DNA from: Mesoterricola sediminis | Lineage (GTDB): Bacteria > Acidobacteriota > Holophagae > Holophagales > Holophagaceae | DNA length: 64,000 bases | Assembly: GCF_030295425.1 (NCBI RefSeq) | Contig: NZ_AP027081.1 | Span: 186,001 to 250,000, forward strand | Direction of reading: 5' to 3' | Shown: positions 444 to 52,860 of the stretch, in pieces | How the letters are laid out: each line of letters starts with the position of its first letter | Position numbering within the stretch: the first letter of the stretch is position 1 | Notes under the pieces: generated by a model | Database searches by the model: none | What the model was told of the DNA's origin: nothing | The model's input: the letters and a program-made list of their open reading frames with translations, nothing else | Made by a program: the position numbers and the translations under genes

Positions 444-1296
444 GTCCGTCGCCGCCCTCCTCCTCCTCGCCGCCGCCCTCCCCGGGATGGCCGGCGAGCC
501 GGCGGGAACGGCCCCGCTCCGGGCCGGGCTGGTCCGCCTCGAGCGCCAGCTCCACGGCCGCATCGGCGTGGCCGCGCGGCAAGGCTCCCGTTCCCTCACC
601 TACCGGGGGGACACGCGTTTCGCCACCTGCTCCACCTTCAAGTGGGTGCTGGGCGCCGCCATCCTGGAGGCCGTGGACGCGGGCCGCCTGCGCCTGGACC
701 AGCCGGTGCCCCTCCGGGAGGCCGCCCTCGTGGCCCACAGCCCCGTCACCCGCGCCCGGCTCGCCGAGGGGAGCCTGTCGGTGGCGGACCTGTGCGAGGC
801 CACCCTCACCGTGAGCGACAACGGGGCCGCGAACCTGCTGGAGCCGCTGATCGGCGGACCCGCCGGCCTCCAGGCCTTCGCCCGGCGCCTGGGGGACCGG
901 ATGTTCCGCCGCGACCGCCCGGAACCGGAGCTCAATACGAACCTGCCGGGGGATCCCCGGGACACCACGAGCCCGGCGGCCATGACCGGCCTCCTGGTCC
1001 GGGTGATGACCACGGGCGTCCTGGCCCCGCCCTCCCGGGACCGGCTCCTGGGCTGGATGAAGGCCGCCACCACGGGCGCGGCCCGCATCCGGGCCGGGGT
1101 CCCGGCGGGGTGGACCGTGGCCGACAAGACCGGCACGGGCCTGCGGGGCGCCGCCCATGACGTGGCGGTCCTGATGCCCCCGGACGGCGAGGCGGTCTAC
1201 CTCACCGTCTTCGTGAACGCCCCCCGGGCCACCCCCGCGGAACGGGACGCGGCCATCGCGGAGGCGACGCGGCGGGTCCTGGACGCCCTCCGCTAG
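427..1296 (+). CDS. Class A beta-lactamase
   Basis: A 289-residue exported serine beta-lactamase, which hydrolyses beta-lactams in the periplasm. All catalytic elements are present, and the protein's own numbering happens to coincide almost exactly with Ambler numbering: nucleophile motif STFK at 69-72, SDN at 130-132, the omega-loop E166 in RPEPELN followed by PGDPRDTTSP, and KTG at 234-236. An N-terminal hydrophobic segment (about residues 8-22) serves as a signal peptide. The start is a GTG at 427 inside the 3' end of gdhA; no better start lies before the signal peptide. The overlap suggests co-transcription with gdhA. No LysR-type ampR-like regulator is adjacent. Subfamily and spectrum cannot be decided from sequence alone. 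Codon use resembles the neighbours, so this looks resident rather than recently acquired. Confidence 0.93.
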   Translation: MGSTPRSVAALLLLAAALPGMAGEPAGTAPLRAGLVRLERQLHGRIGVAARQGSRSLTYRGDTRFATCSTFKWVLGAAILEAVDAGRLRLDQPVPLREAALVAHSPVTRARLAEGSLSVADLCEATLTVSDNGAANLLEPLIGGPAGLQAFARRLGDRMFRRDRPEPELNTNLPGDPRDTTSPAAMTGLLVRVMTTGVLAPPSRDRLLGWMKAATTGAARIRAGVPAGWTVADKTGTGLRGAAHDVAVLMPPDGEAVYLTVFVNAPRATPAERDAAIAEATRRVLDALR

Positions 1297-1409
1297 GGTG
1301 GGTTCGTGATCTAGGATAGTAATGGCTAATACCCATCCGTGCCGGAGCATGAGGGAGCTGGAATAGTGAGTCTGTGCTGCAGTGCCTGATGGCGCCGCGC
1401 ATTCGCAGC

Positions 1410-1462
1410 ATCCTATTGGAACGCGGAGGCGCGGAGGATCTCGCTGAGGCTCGCGGAGAAAG
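1410..1462 (+). repeat. Inverted repeat arm A flanking GxxExxY fragment
   Basis: A 53-bp sequence with the core AACGCGGAGGCGCGGAGGAT followed by CTCGC and GAGG. It recurs in inverted orientation at 1717-1769 with about 46 identical positions. The two arms bracket 254 bp that contain a GxxExxY-family gene fragment. The GCGGAGG motif is internally repeated, so each arm can also fold partially on itself. Confidence 0.85.
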
Positions 1463-1464
1463 GA

Positions 1465-1764
1465 TCAAGCCCTTGTATGTATCACCCGCTTGATTCCACC
1501 GTCTTTGAAAGGCCACTGACGGAAATTGAGGAGCAGGCCGACCTCCATTCCGCTGAAACGCAGCTGGGTGTTCAGTTGCGCGAAGTGGGCATCCATCAGT
1601 TTCTCGACCGCCTTAGCCTCCACGGCCACGAGGTCGTCAACCAGCAAATCCAGCCGGTAGGCCCGCTCAACCACAAGCCCCCTCCACTCGATATCCAGGG
1701 GCAGGTTCCAGGAGCGCTTTCCTCCGCGACCCTCTGCGAGATCCTCCGCGCCTCCGCGTTTCAT
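1465..1764 (-). pseudogene. Truncated GxxExxY-family protein
   Basis: A 99-codon frame whose residues from about 20 onward match the C-terminal two thirds of GxxExxY proteins (about 125 residues, function not established, PD-(D/E)XK-like in some analyses). Visible landmarks are LPLDIEWRG, YRLDLLVDDLVAVEAKAVE, then HFAQL, GLLLNF and KDGGIKRVI. The N-terminal part that gives the family its name (GxxExxY near AALEVHRELG) is missing. In its place the first 18 codons are read from the inverted repeat arm B. The remnant is therefore likely an internal deletion derivative rather than a working gene. It sits 20 bp from the end of the adjacent insertion sequence. Confidence 0.75.
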
Positions 1765-1769
1765 AGGAT
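1717..1769 (-). repeat. Inverted repeat arm B flanking GxxExxY fragment
   Basis: Reverse-complement partner of 1410-1462. It overlaps the 5' end of the GxxExxY fragment, so the repeat supplies the apparent first codons of that frame. The arms could form a stem around a 254-bp loop. Confidence 0.85.
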
Positions 1770-1802
1770 CAATGAGGATCCGGAACGCTTGTCACCCTCC
1801 GC

Positions 1803-2336
1803 TCATAGCCTCAGCCAGATCACGATGCAGGCCAAAGCCACCTGGGCTGAGAAACTTCGCGCCGTTTTGTCGAACCTGGTGGCCAGCGCCCTGAACTGTT
1901 TGAGCTTGGCGAACCCATGCTCGATGGCATGGCGGGCCTCGTATAGGTGTGAGACCCAGGCCGCCGGATTCTTGCGCCGGGGATGAGGTGGGATGACGGC
2001 TGTCGCACCCATGGCCTCGATCGCCTTCCTTACCGGGTTCCCATCGTAGGCCCGATCTCCGAACACGTACTCTGCCTGCCAACCGCACAGCAATCCTTCA
2101 GCAGACCGGCTTTCATGGGCTTGCCCCGGAGTGACCAGGAAATCCAAAGGATTACCGTGGGCATCGCAGATCAAATGGATCTTGGTCGAGCATCCACCCC
2201 GAGATCGTCCGAGCGCCTGGTTCCAGAGCCCCCCCTTTTGCCTGCTGAATGTTGATGAGCGCGAAGGATGGTGCCATCCAGCATGACCCACTCCAGGTCG
2301 GCTTCCTTGCGCAGGAACTCCAGGATCCTTTGCCAC
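1803..2336 (-). CDS. IS5/IS427 transposase, ORF B (catalytic part)
   Basis: The -1 frame relative to ORF A. The useful part begins near the slippery run at 2229-2239 and carries the second and third catalytic residues: the Asp in FGDRAYDGN and the Glu in the helix YEARHAIEHGFAKLKQFRA, followed by the usual ATRFDKTARSF. Frame upstream of the slippery site is open only by chance. Joined with ORF A it gives a DDE transposase of about 250 residues, normal for the group, so the enzyme could be active if frameshifting occurs. It stops 17 bp inside the predicted left end. Confidence 0.85.
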   Translation of the reverse strand: MAKDPGVPAQGSRPGVGHAGWHHPSRSSTFSRQKGGLWNQALGRSRGGCSTKIHLICDAHGNPLDFLVTPGQAHESRSAEGLLCGWQAEYVFGDRAYDGNPVRKAIEAMGATAVIPPHPRRKNPAAWVSHLYEARHAIEHGFAKLKQFRALATRFDKTARSFSAQVALACIVIWLRL

Positions 2337-2557
2337 ACGCCGCGCTTGGTCCAGGCCTCAAATCGCGTGTACACGCTTGTCCAAGGTCCAGATTCCTCCG
2401 GCAGGTCCCTCCACGGCGCCCCAGTCCTGTGCCTCCACAGGATCGCCTCCACCATGGGACGGTTGGGGTGACGGGATCGCCCCATCCCTCCACGCTCTGG
2501 CGGAAGGAGCGGTTCAAGCTTTGCCCACATGGCATCGGTCAGGAAACGTCTCGGCAT
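2171..2557 (-). CDS. IS5/IS427 transposase, ORF A (N-terminal part)
   Basis: A 128-codon frame beginning MPRRFLTDAMWAKLEPLLPP, with the DUF4096-like helix-turn-helix region typical of IS427 transposases and then the first catalytic Asp in VMLDGTILRAHQHSAG. Shortly after that Asp the coding strand has A4G7 (complement of 2229-2239). In frame 0 it reads AAA AGG GGG GGC, giving a G GGG GGC heptamer suited to -1 slippage into ORF B. Without slippage the protein ends about 20 residues later and lacks two catalytic residues. Such two-frame control of transposase is known for this subgroup. Confidence 0.87.
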   Translation of the reverse strand: MPRRFLTDAMWAKLEPLLPPERGGMGRSRHPNRPMVEAILWRHRTGAPWRDLPEESGPWTSVYTRFEAWTKRGVWQRILEFLRKEADLEWVMLDGTILRAHQHSAGKRGGSGTRRSDDLGVDARPRSI

Positions 2558-2590
2558 CGTTACCCCAGGAAAATTCGTGGTGTACGAGCC

Positions 2591-2850
2591 TTTACGTATG
2601 AGTACAAGTTAACTATTTATCTAATCTATAGATTCCGAACACAGCCTAGGGAGCGTTTGGGCTTTTTGAACCACGTTCGCGGCGCAACCAAGCAGCGCGA
2701 TGTCGAGCACCCTCCTCTGGATCCACCCTGCTCCGACCCGAACGGGTATTCGCCATCCCTGATTGGACCTTCCGAACACGCCCTAGCCGCCGGTGGTCTC
2801 CCGCCCGCCAACCGCGCCCTCCCACCGGCATCGAACGGTGGAGGTTGCCC
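2591..2850. other. Intergenic stretch with AT-rich palindrome
   Basis: No supported gene. It contains a strikingly AT-rich patch (about 2605-2640) with a perfect 12-bp palindrome AATCTATAGATT at 2623-2634. An imperfect direct repeat of about 18 bp (TTCCGAACAC followed by GCCTAG or CCCTAG) lies at 2633-2650 and 2769-2786. The composition contrast suggests the edge of an insertion or an old recombination scar. Confidence 0.5.
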
Positions 2851-48663: not shown

Positions 48664-50070
48664 ATGGTCCGCTTCACGGGTCTGCTCGGTCTTGTCTGTT
48701 TCATCGGTCTCGCCTATGCCTGGTCCTCCAACCGGAAGGCCATCCACTGGCGGACGGTGGGGTGGGGCATGGCCCTGCAGTGGATCCTCGCCCTCATCGT
48801 CCTGAAGGGCGACCTGATCTCGCACGCCCTGGGCTTCATTCCCTGGCCCCGGCACGCGGGCTGGGCCGTGCTGGTCCTCCTCTTCCTGCCCATGATCCTG
48901 CGCAAGGCCGGCCTGCCCCCGGGCGCGTGGCTGCGGCGCGCATTCGGCGGCCTGGCCCTGCTGGGCCTCCTGCGCGGCAACCTCGTCGGCTCCGTCTTCG
49001 ACAAGGCCCGACTCGTCGTCGAGGGCCTGATGGGCTTCGCCAAGGAGGGCGCCACCTTCGTGTTCGGGCCCCTGGCCACCCCCGCCGGCGCCGCGGTGAC
49101 CAACGCCCAGGGCGTCACCGTGGGAAGCATCGGGATGATCTTCGCGTTCGTCGTCCTGCCCACCATCATCTTCGTGGCGAGCATCTTCGCGGTCCTCTAC
49201 TACGTGGGCGCCATGCAGTGGGTGGTCGGGGCCTTCTCCCGCGCCATCAGCCGGTTCCTGAAGGTCAGCGGCGCCGAGAGCCTCTCCGTCTCCGCCAGCA
49301 TCCTCATGGGCCAGACCGAGGCCCCCCTGACCATCCGGCCCTACCTGGCCAACCTCACCCGCTCCGAACTCATGGTGATCATGACCGCCGGCATGGCCCA
49401 CGTGTCCGGCTCCATCATGGTGGCTTACGTGCAGGTGGCCCACGTGGACGTCGTGCATCTCCTCACCGCCGTGCTCATGACCGCCCCCGGCGCCATCATG
49501 ATGGCCAAGATCCTCGTGCCCGAGACCGGCGTCCCCGAGACGAGCGGCGAGGTCAAGGTGAACATCCCCAACACCGACGCCAACGTCCTGGACGCCGCCG
49601 CCCGCGGCGCCTCCGAGGGCCTGCACCTGGCCATCAACGTGGCCGGCATGCTCATCGCCTTCATCGCCATCATCGCCATGCTCAACGGCCTCATCCACGC
49701 CGTCCACGACAAGGCCAGCCTCCAGGCCATCCTGGGCTGGATCTTCCGGCCCTTCGCCTTCGTCATGGGCGTGCCCTGGAAGGAGGCCGGCATCGTCGGC
49801 TCCCTCCTGGGCGAGCGCATGGTGGTCAACGAGTTCGTCGCCTTCATCCACCTGGGCTCCCTCCCCGTCCTCAGCGAGAAGGCCCGCCTCGTCAGCACCT
49901 TCGCCCTCTGCGGCTTCGCCAACTTCTCCTCCATCGCCATCCAGGTCGGCGGCATCGGCGCCCTGGTCCCGGAGCGCCGCGGGGATCTGGCCCGCCTCGG
50001 CCTGAAGGCCATGGTCGCCGGCACCCTGGCCAACTTCATGTCCGCCTGCATCGCCGGCATCCTGAGCTAG
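48664..50070 (+). CDS. nupC: Concentrative nucleoside transporter NupC family
   Basis: A 468-residue inner-membrane symporter that imports nucleosides with Na+ or H+. Family motifs are present: ILMGQTEAPLTIRPYLANLT (nucleoside site), MTAGMAHVSGSIMVAYVQ, and the late GERMVVNEFVAFIHL and CGFANFSSIAIQVGGIGALV. About ten hydrophobic segments are seen. It is transcribed forward after the roadblock gene. The 3' flank is the long inverted-repeat module; one arm starts six bases after the stop codon. Function links with the purine nucleoside phosphorylase at 15876. Confidence 0.92.
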   Translation: MVRFTGLLGLVCFIGLAYAWSSNRKAIHWRTVGWGMALQWILALIVLKGDLISHALGFIPWPRHAGWAVLVLLFLPMILRKAGLPPGAWLRRAFGGLALLGLLRGNLVGSVFDKARLVVEGLMGFAKEGATFVFGPLATPAGAAVTNAQGVTVGSIGMIFAFVVLPTIIFVASIFAVLYYVGAMQWVVGAFSRAISRFLKVSGAESLSVSASILMGQTEAPLTIRPYLANLTRSELMVIMTAGMAHVSGSIMVAYVQVAHVDVVHLLTAVLMTAPGAIMMAKILVPETGVPETSGEVKVNIPNTDANVLDAAARGASEGLHLAINVAGMLIAFIAIIAMLNGLIHAVHDKASLQAILGWIFRPFAFVMGVPWKEAGIVGSLLGERMVVNEFVAFIHLGSLPVLSEKARLVSTFALCGFANFSSIAIQVGGIGALVPERRGDLARLGLKAMVAGTLANFMSACIAGILS

Positions 50071-50076
50071 TTCAGG

Positions 50077-50319
50077 CAGGTCGAATCACCGGAACGATCG
50101 TGTCCCGTTCCTTCGTAACGCAAGGGTAAGTAAAGTTCCCGTACGCCGAGTGCGCCGGGACGTCGAGTCACGCTGAGCCAGCTTCGCGATCCACCGCGCC
50201 GCCCAGGCCCTGGCCCGCTGGCGCGGGCCGCGATGCTGCGCATCGCTCGGCTGGGGGCTCCGGGCCTTCCGCATGCACGCCTGCGGGTGCCCTGCGCCCC
50301 CAGCCTTGGACGGGCCTGG
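50077..50319 (+). repeat. Long inverted repeat, left arm
   Basis: About 243 bp that recur as the reverse complement at 50572-50830, with roughly 90 % identity by eye and small indels (for example an extra TCGA and an extra 8 bp in the right arm). The inner end reads CCTTGGACGGGCCTGG. The arms bracket a decayed GxxExxY gene. Very long fold-back potential; it also doubles as a strong barrier after nupC. Confidence 0.9.
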
Positions 50320-50571
50320 TTTGAGGTTCAGCCCAAGATGCCGGATCCAGATTGATAGCGAGCGGTCATGGAGCAAGCCGAAGCGCAAGATTCAACGGGC
50401 AGGCCCAGACGTTGAGAAGCCGGCCTTGGCTTCCACGATCACCGTGTCGTCGATCCTGAGACCGATCAGGCAGGAGTCGGGCATCAGAAGCCCCTCGAAG
50501 GTGATGTCCAGGTGGACGTCCAGCAGGTCCTCGCCTGTTCCCGAAACCGGGGTTTACCGAGGCGGCTGAGC
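50320..50571 (-). pseudogene. Decayed GxxExxY-family gene between inverted repeats
   Basis: On the minus strand one frame reads LLDVHLDITFEGLLMPDSC, then IDDTVIVEAKAGF, and then stops within a few codons. This corresponds to the middle of GxxExxY proteins (LDI-EGL, IDLLVDD, VEVKAVE). A further segment, RFGLLHDRS and GLNLKPGPSK, matches the family C-terminus in another frame. Thus the gene has lost its N-terminus and carries a stop and frameshift. The spacer length, 252 bp, is almost equal to the 254 bp of the module at 1463-1716. Confidence 0.7.
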
Positions 50572-50830
50572 CCAGGCCCGTCCAAGGCTGGGGGCGCAGG
50601 GCACCCGCAGGCGTGCATGCGGAAGGCCCGGAGCCCCCAGCCGAGCGATGCGCAGCATCGCGGCCCGCGGCAGCGGGCCAGGGCCTGGGCGGTGTGGGGC
50701 GGCGCGGTGGATCGCGAAGCTGGCTCAGCGTGACTCGACGTCTCGGCGCACTCTGCGTACGGGATTTTTACTCACCCTCGCCAGCGCGAAGGGTCGGGAC
50801 ACGTTCGTTCCGGTGATTCGATCGACCTGC
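50572..50830 (-). repeat. Long inverted repeat, right arm
   Basis: Reverse-complement partner of 50077-50319, about 259 bp. It ends about 75 bp from the nuoF stop codon. No terminal duplication of the target could be recognised. Confidence 0.9.
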
Positions 50831-50905
50831 ACCCGTGACTTGCCTGCAGATACACCTGTCTCATGACAGGAGGAAGCGCAGGGACGGGACGGCCCTCCGC
50901 GGGGA

Positions 50906-52282
50906 TCAGTGCGCCGCGAGGGCGGCGGCGGGGAGGATCGAGCGGGTTCCGGGCATGCAGGTCTTGTGCTGCACGTGGTACTCGAACTCGTCCCGGAACT
51001 TCTGCAGCATGCTCTCCATCGGGCCGCAGGCGGCGTCGCCCAGGGGGCAGAGGGTGCGCATGTTGATCCGCGGGGGCAGGCTCGCCAGGAGGTCCAGGTC
51101 GTCGGGGCGGCCCTGCCCGTGCTCGAGGCGGTGGAGGATCATCTCCATCCAGTTGCAGCCTTCCCGGCAGGGCGTGCACTGCCCGCAGCTCTCGTGGGCG
51201 TAGAACTTGATGAGGCGCAGGGTGGCCTGGACCATGCAGGTGCGCTCGTCCATCACGATGAGCCCGCCGGAGCCGGCCATGGAGCCCCGGGCCCGCACGG
51301 TGTCGAAGTCGAGGGGGCAGTCAAAGTCCTTGGCGGTGAAGACGGGGGCGCTGCTGCCGCCGGGGATCACGGCCTTGATCTTCGCGCCGGTGGAGGAGCC
51401 GCCGGCGAGGTCGTTCATGAGGAATTCCAGGGGCAGGCCCAGGGGGAGCTCGTAGAGGCCGGGGCGCTTCACGTGGCCCGAGACGCCGTAGATGCGGGTG
51501 CCGGTGTTGCCGGGCGTGCCGAGCTTGGCGTACTCCGCGCCGCCCATGCGGAGGATCGGGGCCACCGCGGCCAGGGTCTCGACGTTGTTCACGGTGGTGG
51601 GCTGGCCGAAGGCGCCCACGGAGGCCGGGAAGGGGGGCTTCACGCGGGGCTCGCCGCGGCGGCCCTCGAGGCTGTTCAGGAGGGCGGTCTCCTCGCCGCA
51701 GATGTAGGCGCCGGCGCCCCGGTAGGTGAGGATGTCGAAGTCCCAGCCCGTGCCCAGGATGTTCCTGCCCAGGTAGCCCGCGTCCCGGGCCTCCTGGATG
51801 GCGGCCTCGAGCTTGTCGATGAGCCAGGAGAACTCGCCCCGCAGGTAGATGAAGCCCATCCTGCACTGCATGGCCCAGCCGCCGATGATCATGCCCTCGA
51901 TGAGCTGGTGGGGGTTGTACTCGAGGATCGCGCGGTCCTTGAAGGTGCCGGGCTCGCCCTCGTCGCCGTTGCACACCAGGTAGCGGGTGTGCTTGCGCTC
52001 GGGGGTGTCCTTGGGCATGAAGCTCCACTTGAGGCCCGTCCGGAATCCCGCGCCGCCGCGGCCGCGGATGTCGGAGGCCTTGACCTCGGCGGTGACCGCG
52101 GTCGGCTCCATCTTCAGGGCCTTCTTCATGCCCTGGTAGCCCTCCCAGCGGCCCTCGTAGACCTTGAGGTGCCAGTTGTCCAGGTCGCCCGCGCCGCGGA
52201 GCATGAGGTTGGGGTACTTGTCGGAGCCGAAGCCGGGGAAGGTGTAGCTCTGGTGATCGGGCTTGGTGCGGATGGCGGCCAT
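50906..52282 (-). CDS. nuoF: NADH-quinone oxidoreductase subunit NuoF
   Basis: A 458-residue flavoprotein that takes electrons from NADH to FMN and then to an iron-sulfur cluster. It has the FMN/NADH motifs SDIRGRGGAGFRTGLKW, NGDEGEPGTFKDR and GAGAYICGEETALLNSLEGR, and the cluster ligands in ESCGQCTPCREG plus the distant Cys in TLCPLGDAA. Length is normal for NuoF. Start ATG at 52282 with GGGGAG at 6 bases. nuoE lies two bases upstream. No nuoG or membrane subunits are present downstream, where the inverted-repeat module begins. Confidence 0.94.
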   Translation of the reverse strand: MAAIRTKPDHQSYTFPGFGSDKYPNLMLRGAGDLDNWHLKVYEGRWEGYQGMKKALKMEPTAVTAEVKASDIRGRGGAGFRTGLKWSFMPKDTPERKHTRYLVCNGDEGEPGTFKDRAILEYNPHQLIEGMIIGGWAMQCRMGFIYLRGEFSWLIDKLEAAIQEARDAGYLGRNILGTGWDFDILTYRGAGAYICGEETALLNSLEGRRGEPRVKPPFPASVGAFGQPTTVNNVETLAAVAPILRMGGAEYAKLGTPGNTGTRIYGVSGHVKRPGLYELPLGLPLEFLMNDLAGGSSTGAKIKAVIPGGSSAPVFTAKDFDCPLDFDTVRARGSMAGSGGLIVMDERTCMVQATLRLIKFYAHESCGQCTPCREGCNWMEMILHRLEHGQGRPDDLDLLASLPPRINMRTLCPLGDAACGPMESMLQKFRDEFEYHVQHKTCMPGTRSILPAAALAAH

Positions 52283-52284
52283 GG

Positions 52285-52860
52285 TCACTCCCCCCACGCG
52301 GCGGTCTCGCCGCGCCGGCAGGCGTCGATGATCGCCTCCAGCTTGGCCTCGTCCACGAACTCGTCGAAGACGCCGTGGTTGATCTGGATGCAGGGGCCGC
52401 TTCCGCAGGACGCGAGGCACTCCACCTCCTCGACGCTCCACATGCCGTCGGCCGTTGGGCCTTCGCCGGGGCGGGCCCCGGTCCTGTCGATGACCTTCTG
52501 GAGGAGTTCGGCCGCGCCGTTCAGGGCGCAGCTGAGGTTCGTGCACACCTCGAAGTGGTACCGGCCCACGGGGCGCTTGCGGAACATGGTGTAGAAGGTG
52601 GCGACGCCGAAGACGTGCCCCTCGGGCACCCCCAGCGCCGCGGCGACCTCCTTCATGGCCCCCAGGCTGAGGAAGCCGAATTCCTTCTGGGCGATGTAGA
52701 GGGCCGGGAGGGTGCCGGCGAGCTTGTCCGGGAACCGGGCGGCGATCTCCTGGATCTTGGCCACGGATTCGGGGCTCAGCTTCTCGCGCTTGGCCTTGGG
52801 CAGACGCTCGCCCGGGGCGAGGGGCGCGTCGCTGGTTTCGGGGGGCAGGGGATGGTTCAT
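52285..52860 (-). CDS. nuoE: NADH-quinone oxidoreductase subunit NuoE
   Basis: A 191-residue thioredoxin-like [2Fe-2S] subunit (N1a cluster) that partners NuoF in the NADH module. Ligands have the family spacing: CTNLSC (CX4C) and CLASCG (CX3C), with GVATFYTMFRKRPVGRYHFE in between. The N-terminus is extended by about 25 Pro/Lys-rich residues before the helical domain; ATG at 52860 is the only plausible start, further upstream codons lack a ribosome site. It is transcribed with nuoF and lies 117 bp downstream of yceI on the same strand. Confidence 0.93.
   Translation of the reverse strand: MNHPLPPETSDAPLAPGERLPKAKREKLSPESVAKIQEIAARFPDKLAGTLPALYIAQKEFGFLSLGAMKEVAAALGVPEGHVFGVATFYTMFRKRPVGRYHFEVCTNLSCALNGAAELLQKVIDRTGARPGEGPTADGMWSVEEVECLASCGSGPCIQINHGVFDEFVDEAKLEAIIDACRRGETAAWGE

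Follow-up and report, generated by a model that had tools for sequence, protein, structure and literature searches.

Introduction

Insertion sequences of the IS630 type usually have inverted ends far shorter than 250 nt. Dispersed inverted repeats of another kind are known from the REPIN/RAYT systems, in which many short inverted pairs lie scattered between genes and a partner gene of one family, present in few copies per genome, is flanked by the same repeat (PMC3116915, PMC2817692). Palindromic repeats tagged by GTAG or CGTC are also dispersed in chromosomes, and many of them are linked to RAYT genes (PMC3733652).

Here we analyzed a locus in the window, by which we mean the whole 64,000-nt stretch at C1:186001-250000 of the one-contig, 4.52-Mb genome of Mesoterricola sediminis. 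An earlier note on this DNA had described a 754-nt module at 50077-50830, in which inverted arms surround a 252-nt spacer coding in pieces for a GxxExxY protein, and had taken it together with a second module at 1410-1769 (module B) for a recurrent unit that had not been described. The proposal of such a unit of inverted arms and GxxExxY proved right in substance, but the proposed geometry was wrong. Our full-text literature searches, which had most subscription papers and preprints outside their scope, found no account of the repeat words reported below, of their association with the gene or of the function of the GxxExxY family, which is weak evidence of absence; the unit is thus apparently undescribed. 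The association of GxxExxY genes with these words across phyla is the part of interest, and it appears to be new.

Results

Anatomy of the window module

Re-reading the inverted-repeat ends from the sequence refined the span of the element to approximately 50071-50831 (761 bases). The left arm, delimited by gap-free block alignment and comparison of copies, occupies 50071-50319 on the forward strand, and the right arm, 89% alike when gaps are allowed, occupies 50572-50831 on the reverse strand. Without gaps, the arms pair over three blocks, of 135 nt at 95% complementarity, 85 nt at 93% and 46 nt at 85%, which bears out the arms seen earlier. The predicted long fold-back also held, with an RNA fold energy of -656 kcal/mol where shuffled sequences average -359 kcal/mol (z -30.5). 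Each arm contains a degenerate array of short words: CGCCGAG, CGCCGGG, CGTCGAG and CGCTGAG at 50144-50177 (forward) and their inverted counterpart at 50724-50757 (reverse), none of which matches the strict word pattern used below.

The element sits between a nucleoside transporter gene (48664-50070, forward) and an NADH-quinone oxidoreductase F-like gene (50906-52546, reverse). A CTAG at 50067-50070 (forward) is flush with the left end and presumably marks the target, TA within CTAG; the TAG stop codon of the transporter gene lies inside this CTAG and directly adjoins the element.

Arm alignment and comparison with a sibling copy (L068, see below) identify the spacer at 50320-50571 as the leftover of a gene-bearing interior. 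That it codes in pieces for a GxxExxY protein was confirmed by two stretches on the reverse strand. The core piece (50422-50530) carries the D and ExK residues and corresponds to residues 95-129 of the L068 frame, with 86% identity by tblastn (E 6e-18) and 93% over 108 nt by blastn. The C-terminal piece (50391-50425) is 91% identical over 35 nt and retains 11 residues. The part bearing the GxxExxY motif itself has been deleted relative to L068. A PF13366 profile search of 50077-50830 gave no match even at E 1, so that the membership of the relic in the GxxExxY family rests on its sibling. With the transposase of a complete relative (L513) as the query, no transposase piece was recognizable in the window copy.

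Copies and complete relatives of the module

With the 754-nt module as the query, we found about 14 large and about 10 small copies in the same genome, approximately 24 in all, which we call family A. Their arms are mostly 85-94% alike between copies, and their spacers range from 96 to 718 nt. The near-equal spacers of the two window modules (252 and 254 nt), which had been read as a design feature, are therefore a coincidence. As to what keeps the arms similar, descent is at least part of the answer, since the arms form the termini of an element that is dispersed. The shortest copies (L075-L077, L080) are barely more than terminal pieces facing one another. An intact GxxExxY frame was found in one copy only, L068, where it measures 178 residues from the most upstream start and the domain occupies its later part. 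Transposase fragments, again detected with the L513 protein, are kept in 13 of the 14 large copies, the exception being the window copy. Of 33 family A ends, 13 have a CTAG at a distance of exactly 14 nt outward from TCGAATCACC, one has it at -17 and one at -28, and the 30 nt inspected contain no further CTAG; from 0.2-0.45 CTAG per kb, about 0.01-0.02 would be expected at one position over 33 ends. Three copies (L070, L073, L077) have CTAG at the fixed offset at both ends. Of the 18 family A elements tested, 13 contain the strict form of the word pattern at least once (0-0.06 per element in shuffles). Multiple copies that have their ends in common with the full element and no intact transposase make family A a set of MITEs.

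Several copies have been rearranged. Four of them (L067, L068, L070, L071) have additional arm fragments piled up outside the main arms at a spacing of 28 nt. The sequence of this spacing matches the 3' end of a neighboring gene (..ALKRLLTQLG-stop), as would result if the end of an element had picked up a gene tail and then been duplicated. L072 contains three tandem 169-nt repeats of inner arm and a 5' transposase piece (1770-2254) within one copy. In L066 another insertion sequence, of the DDE_Tnp_1 type, is inserted at 440-1437, and a similar sequence lies inside the module B copies L094 and L096; judging from these sequences, it may habitually hit GxxExxY modules.

A complete relative of family A was found in the congeneric genome G005 (L513:1546-3760). 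Its 269-nt arms, 92% complementary, stand 1676 nt apart and enclose a DDE_3 transposase with a helix-turn-helix (HTH) and an intact GxxExxY gene (PF13366 113 bits, above the curated cut-off) in opposite, convergent reading directions. Its ends read CTAG followed by TGTAGGT, and its arms, like those of family A, carry words some 75 nt in from either end (GCCGAGTGCGCTGAGACGCCGAG). This complete element, together with the transposase fragments in 13 of the 14 large copies, leads us to conclude from sequence comparison that family A is a transposon of the IS630 type whose inverted ends are exceptionally long and which carries a second gene. The genome G004 contains a second IS630-type element of 1870 nt in seven copies (L503-L509) at 99-99.7% identity, with ends reading CTAG followed by TGTAGGCCGCCAGAAATACC and an intact GxxExxY gene beside a 48-nt word palindrome. 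In these seven copies, both word arms stand together between the transposase and the GxxExxY gene, not around the gene.

We consider it very probable that the window copy derives from a transposon. The best explanation of the whole is probably that the module is a dead, non-autonomous IS630-type relic with inverted ends of 250-270 nt, which once enclosed convergent genes for a DDE transposase and a GxxExxY nuclease. Taken alone, the window copy is thus of a known kind, with unusual arms and cargo. Because ends of 250 nt far exceed those usual for IS630, the arms may include sequence acquired after the core element.

All five congeneric genomes contain the gene upstream of the window element, and in two fetched loci the downstream gene lies next to it. 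In G001, an unrelated 493-nt stretch lies between the two flanking genes; no exact junction is readable against it, and none of the congeneric loci gave a clean family A empty site with a target duplication. Given the extreme fold-back of the module, one might propose a structural or RNA feature held at this place by selection, such as a functional cruciform. This reading is scarcely credible given the many dispersed copies, the variable and broken arms and the unrelated sequence between the same two genes in G001.

What we observed directly is the copy family with its arms and its fragments of transposase and nuclease, the complete relative in G005, and the CTAG at the end. For the relic, we propose the following course of events. 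Family A would have been inserted by its DDE transposase into TA within CTAG, with a jump and a target duplication that we infer, and the insertion site of the window copy would be the stop codon of the neighboring gene. Insertion at CTAG would account for ends that coincide with TAG stop codons, possibly the least harmful of the CTAGs. After insertion, the transposase gene and the greater part of the nuclease gene would have disappeared from the window copy, and any movement of such copies would depend on a transposase provided in trans. Gene, words and arms would travel together as one cassette. In a more speculative step, the nuclease might act on its words or on the hairpin that they form.

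Module B and its carrier

Module B (1417-1763, reverse strand) consists of 45-nt inverted arms, 91% complementary and containing the words CGCGGAG and CGCTGAG, around a truncated GxxExxY frame (1465-1764, reverse; PF13366 7e-17). With 62 bits, above the curated cut-off, it is a stronger GxxExxY fragment than the window copy; the expectation that a profile search would recognize the family in both spacers thus came true for module B and failed for the window copy.

The module is embedded in an insertion sequence at 1293-2650 (reverse; PF01609 2.6e-18) that occurs in at least 40 copies in the genome. A DDE_Tnp_1 transposase, many near-identical copies and common ends define this carrier, which by our reading seems IS5-like. 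Thirty-eight copies (L081-L118) could be aligned to their ends. Outside module B they are nearly identical, and module B, the only variable part, occurs in 26 sequence variants and is between 181 and 1614 nt long; a full-length GxxExxY frame of 146 residues is present in two of the 38. Two further carrier copies (L439, L441) retain merely 54 nt of module B. We considered them as empty sites and rejected this, as they look like deletion derivatives at a GGATC repeat.

Module B is independent in origin, yet it owes its many copies to its carrier. The picture of free-standing units of fixed geometry had to be abandoned, since one module is an IS630-type relic and the other was multiplied within a different DDE insertion sequence.

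The GxxExxY protein

The L068 protein belongs to the GxxExxY/PDDEXK_3 family (PF13366, TIGR04256) with a TIGR04256 score of 115 bits, above the curated cut-off. An AlphaFold2 model based on 71 aligned sequences reached a pLDDT of 97.5. No solved structure related by sequence was found, and Foldseek alone gave nothing below E 0.02. Among solved folds, the Cas4-like SSO0001 comes closest (Z 9.1, 3.5 Å over 95 residues); further PD-(D/E)XK folds include archaeal Hjc (Z 6.7) and XisH (Z 5.9), whose scores, unlike that of SSO0001, do not exceed the level that unrelated superfamily members can give. The likeness seen is one of fold. Invariant residues, numbered as in L235, include G18, G20, E23, Y26, D63 and K75, and E73 is nearly invariant. 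The model thus has both the core fold and the D ... ExK residues of the PD-(D/E)XK superfamily, and D63, E73 and K75 are the set that an active nuclease of this superfamily would show. We conclude that GxxExxY is a predicted PD-(D/E)XK nuclease with the residues expected of an active enzyme.

Inverted words around GxxExxY genes across phyla

Inverted arms around a GxxExxY core had been claimed to recur, and they do so in the same genome, in the genus and in many phyla. In relatives, 16 of 22 GxxExxY loci have an inverted match of at least 34 bits between their 300-nt flanks (best match per locus), in comparison with none of 22 PIN-domain genes from the same genomes (highest 25.4 bits; Fisher 4e-7). 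Among loci from many phyla, found with conserved peptides of one clade, 56 of 77 have an inverted flank match of at least 30 bits, a fraction that applies to the sampled clade. None of 133 windows of equal spacing taken from the same 77 loci reaches this level (p 8e-34), and direct matches of this strength occur in 17 of the 77. For the scan of the collection, a set of 21 diverse proteins proved too heterogeneous when aligned, and the closer subset used in its place favors one clade of the family.

The arms have one design in common: after TTnACC come at least three RCNNAG words with 1-3 nt between them (TTCACCACAGAGACACAGAGACACAGAG type), so that the words recur every 7-9 nt. They read inwards from both sides, typically 10-40 nt off the GxxExxY domain. 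Of 79 loci, 52 carry the three-word pattern upstream and 56 downstream in the orientation that the design predicts, and 45 carry it so on both sides; the opposite orientation was seen upstream in 9 and downstream in 15. Among composition-shuffled upstream flanks, 0.2% contain the pattern. The sequence of the arms covaries with that of the protein (Mantel r 0.42, p 0.0005, 49 loci picked by arm score), also after allowing for G+C content (r 0.40, p 0.0005) and among cross-phylum pairs only (r 0.37, p 0.001; 11 phyla, labeled from record titles). These flanks suggest that in bacteria of at least 11 phyla the GxxExxY family is usually wrapped in inverted repeats of one design.

One reading of this association, by analogy with the presumed role of RAYT for REPINs, is that GxxExxY acts as the motor: the nuclease would recognize the words or their hairpin or cruciform, and its cutting would copy or move word pairs. 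Family A, the G004 element and the insertion sequence around module B would then be later vehicles that captured the cassette, and this reading complements the transposon explanation of the window copy rather than excluding it. We regard it as a real possibility that falls somewhat short of an even chance. The equal orientation of the words on both sides of the gene across phyla speaks for it, as does the covariation, including that among cross-phylum pairs, although covariation is also expected from plain joint inheritance of gene and words. The nuclease fold, with its distant likeness to Cas4 and Hjc, is in keeping with such a role. So is the distribution of the gene, with rare occurrences on plasmids (8 of 72,556 records) and none detected in phages. 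Queries with IS630 and IS5-like transposases matched none of the 79 cross-phylum loci, an absence that rests on those two queries.

Alternatively, GxxExxY might be idle or host-domesticated cargo, and the words might be termini of ordinary MITEs that various DDE transposases mobilize, with the gene riding between them. The occurrence of the gene in three different transposon lineages within this genus would fit such a role. We consider it unlikely because the word design is constant over many phyla despite the differing types of transposons, and because the words follow the protein, which is not expected of cargo.

In a Bacteroides finegoldii plasmid record (L427), the GxxExxY gene lies tightly between radA and a gene for an FAD-dependent protein, possibly as a domesticated copy in an operon.

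Word pairs without the gene

The strict three-word pattern gave 0-112 hits per genome in 60 relatives and almost none with a reversed control. At least one hit was present in 27 of the 35 genomes that have a PDDEXK_3 match and in 4 of the 25 that lack one (p 4e-6), and this tie between words and gene also favors the nuclease as the motor. Some hits are not elements; those of the 11.8-Mb genome G042 resemble coding repeats. Of the 43 genomes reached from cross-phylum loci, 38 have word hits, with one control hit altogether. Two genomes, G043 and G045, contain many hits (35 and 12) and no PF13366 match, which weighs against the motor reading; they might have lost the gene, be incompletely assembled or have another partner for the words.

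In the complete genome G035, the 100 hits listed include 20 convergent pairs within 150 nt and no other close neighbors, and three of these hits are near a GxxExxY gene. The 20 pairs fetched are 68-115 nt long with no gene inside. The dispersal of such gene-less convergent pairs in the same genomes is a further point for a nuclease that moves its words. Pairs at L377-L396 and L483-L502 run into two conserved outer ends, TTTGCATTCAAAAGATAAGGAT and GATCAAGACCCAAGATTTTCTTTT, each followed by CACC. As the two outer ends differ, many elements are asymmetric. A few pairs have a TNA flank, which may hint at a fixed target duplication. Extended asymmetric ends and TNA hints are DDE-like and lend some weight to the cargo reading. 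One word pair of G036 is missing from the syntenic gap in G030, where the surroundings are 91% identical; presence and absence are clear, and the junction of the empty site is blurred.

The inverted words could also serve as a regulatory device of the gene, that is, an operator, a terminator or an autoregulatory RNA hairpin, with no mobile unit involved. Their strong folding and their position 10-40 nt from the domain on both sides would suit this function. It is nonetheless very improbable, because most word pairs have no adjacent GxxExxY gene (three of the 100 listed G035 hits are near one) and an Rfam scan of six sources found no known RNA family.

Discussion

GxxExxY proteins are common and often present in multiple copies, and a constant DNA signature makes this uncharacterized family testable. 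The association would also identify a widespread class of intergenic repeats that seems nameless so far. We tentatively suggest, by analogy, that GxxExxY proteins might be sequence- and structure-specific nucleases that maintain and spread inverted pairs of word arrays in many phyla, in the manner of REPIN/RAYT, and that transposons have occasionally captured them. The window copy illustrates the riding and decay of such a cassette inside a transposon.

Compared with known systems, family A resembles IS630 (IS630-Tc1-mariner) and its derived MITEs in three respects: its complete relative has a DDE_3 transposase with an N-terminal HTH, it ends at CTAG, with the TA inside as the presumed target, and deletion derivatives exist. 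It differs from IS630 in its inverted arms of about 260 nt and its second gene, GxxExxY, and the window copy lacks a transposase. The predicted nuclease shares the PD-(D/E)XK fold with archaeal Hjc, Cas4 and XisH. Similarly to the GTAG- and CGTC-tagged repeats (PMC3733652), the GxxExxY word pairs are dispersed palindromic repeats of chromosomes, whereas their sequence design and partner gene are different.

The partnership of nuclease and words is, from its sequence features, plausibly REPIN/RAYT-like (PMC3116915, PMC2817692). The partner, however, is a PDDEXK_3 nuclease and not a Y1 (HUH) transposase, so that the system falls outside REPIN/RAYT by membership. The repeats are arrays of words spaced by 7-9 nt instead of palindromes of 20-40 nt, and transposition by the GxxExxY protein is putative. 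What the two have in common is the way of working: genomes with GxxExxY contain many short inverted pairs dispersed between genes, and the same repeat flanks a gene of one family that is itself present in few copies per genome.
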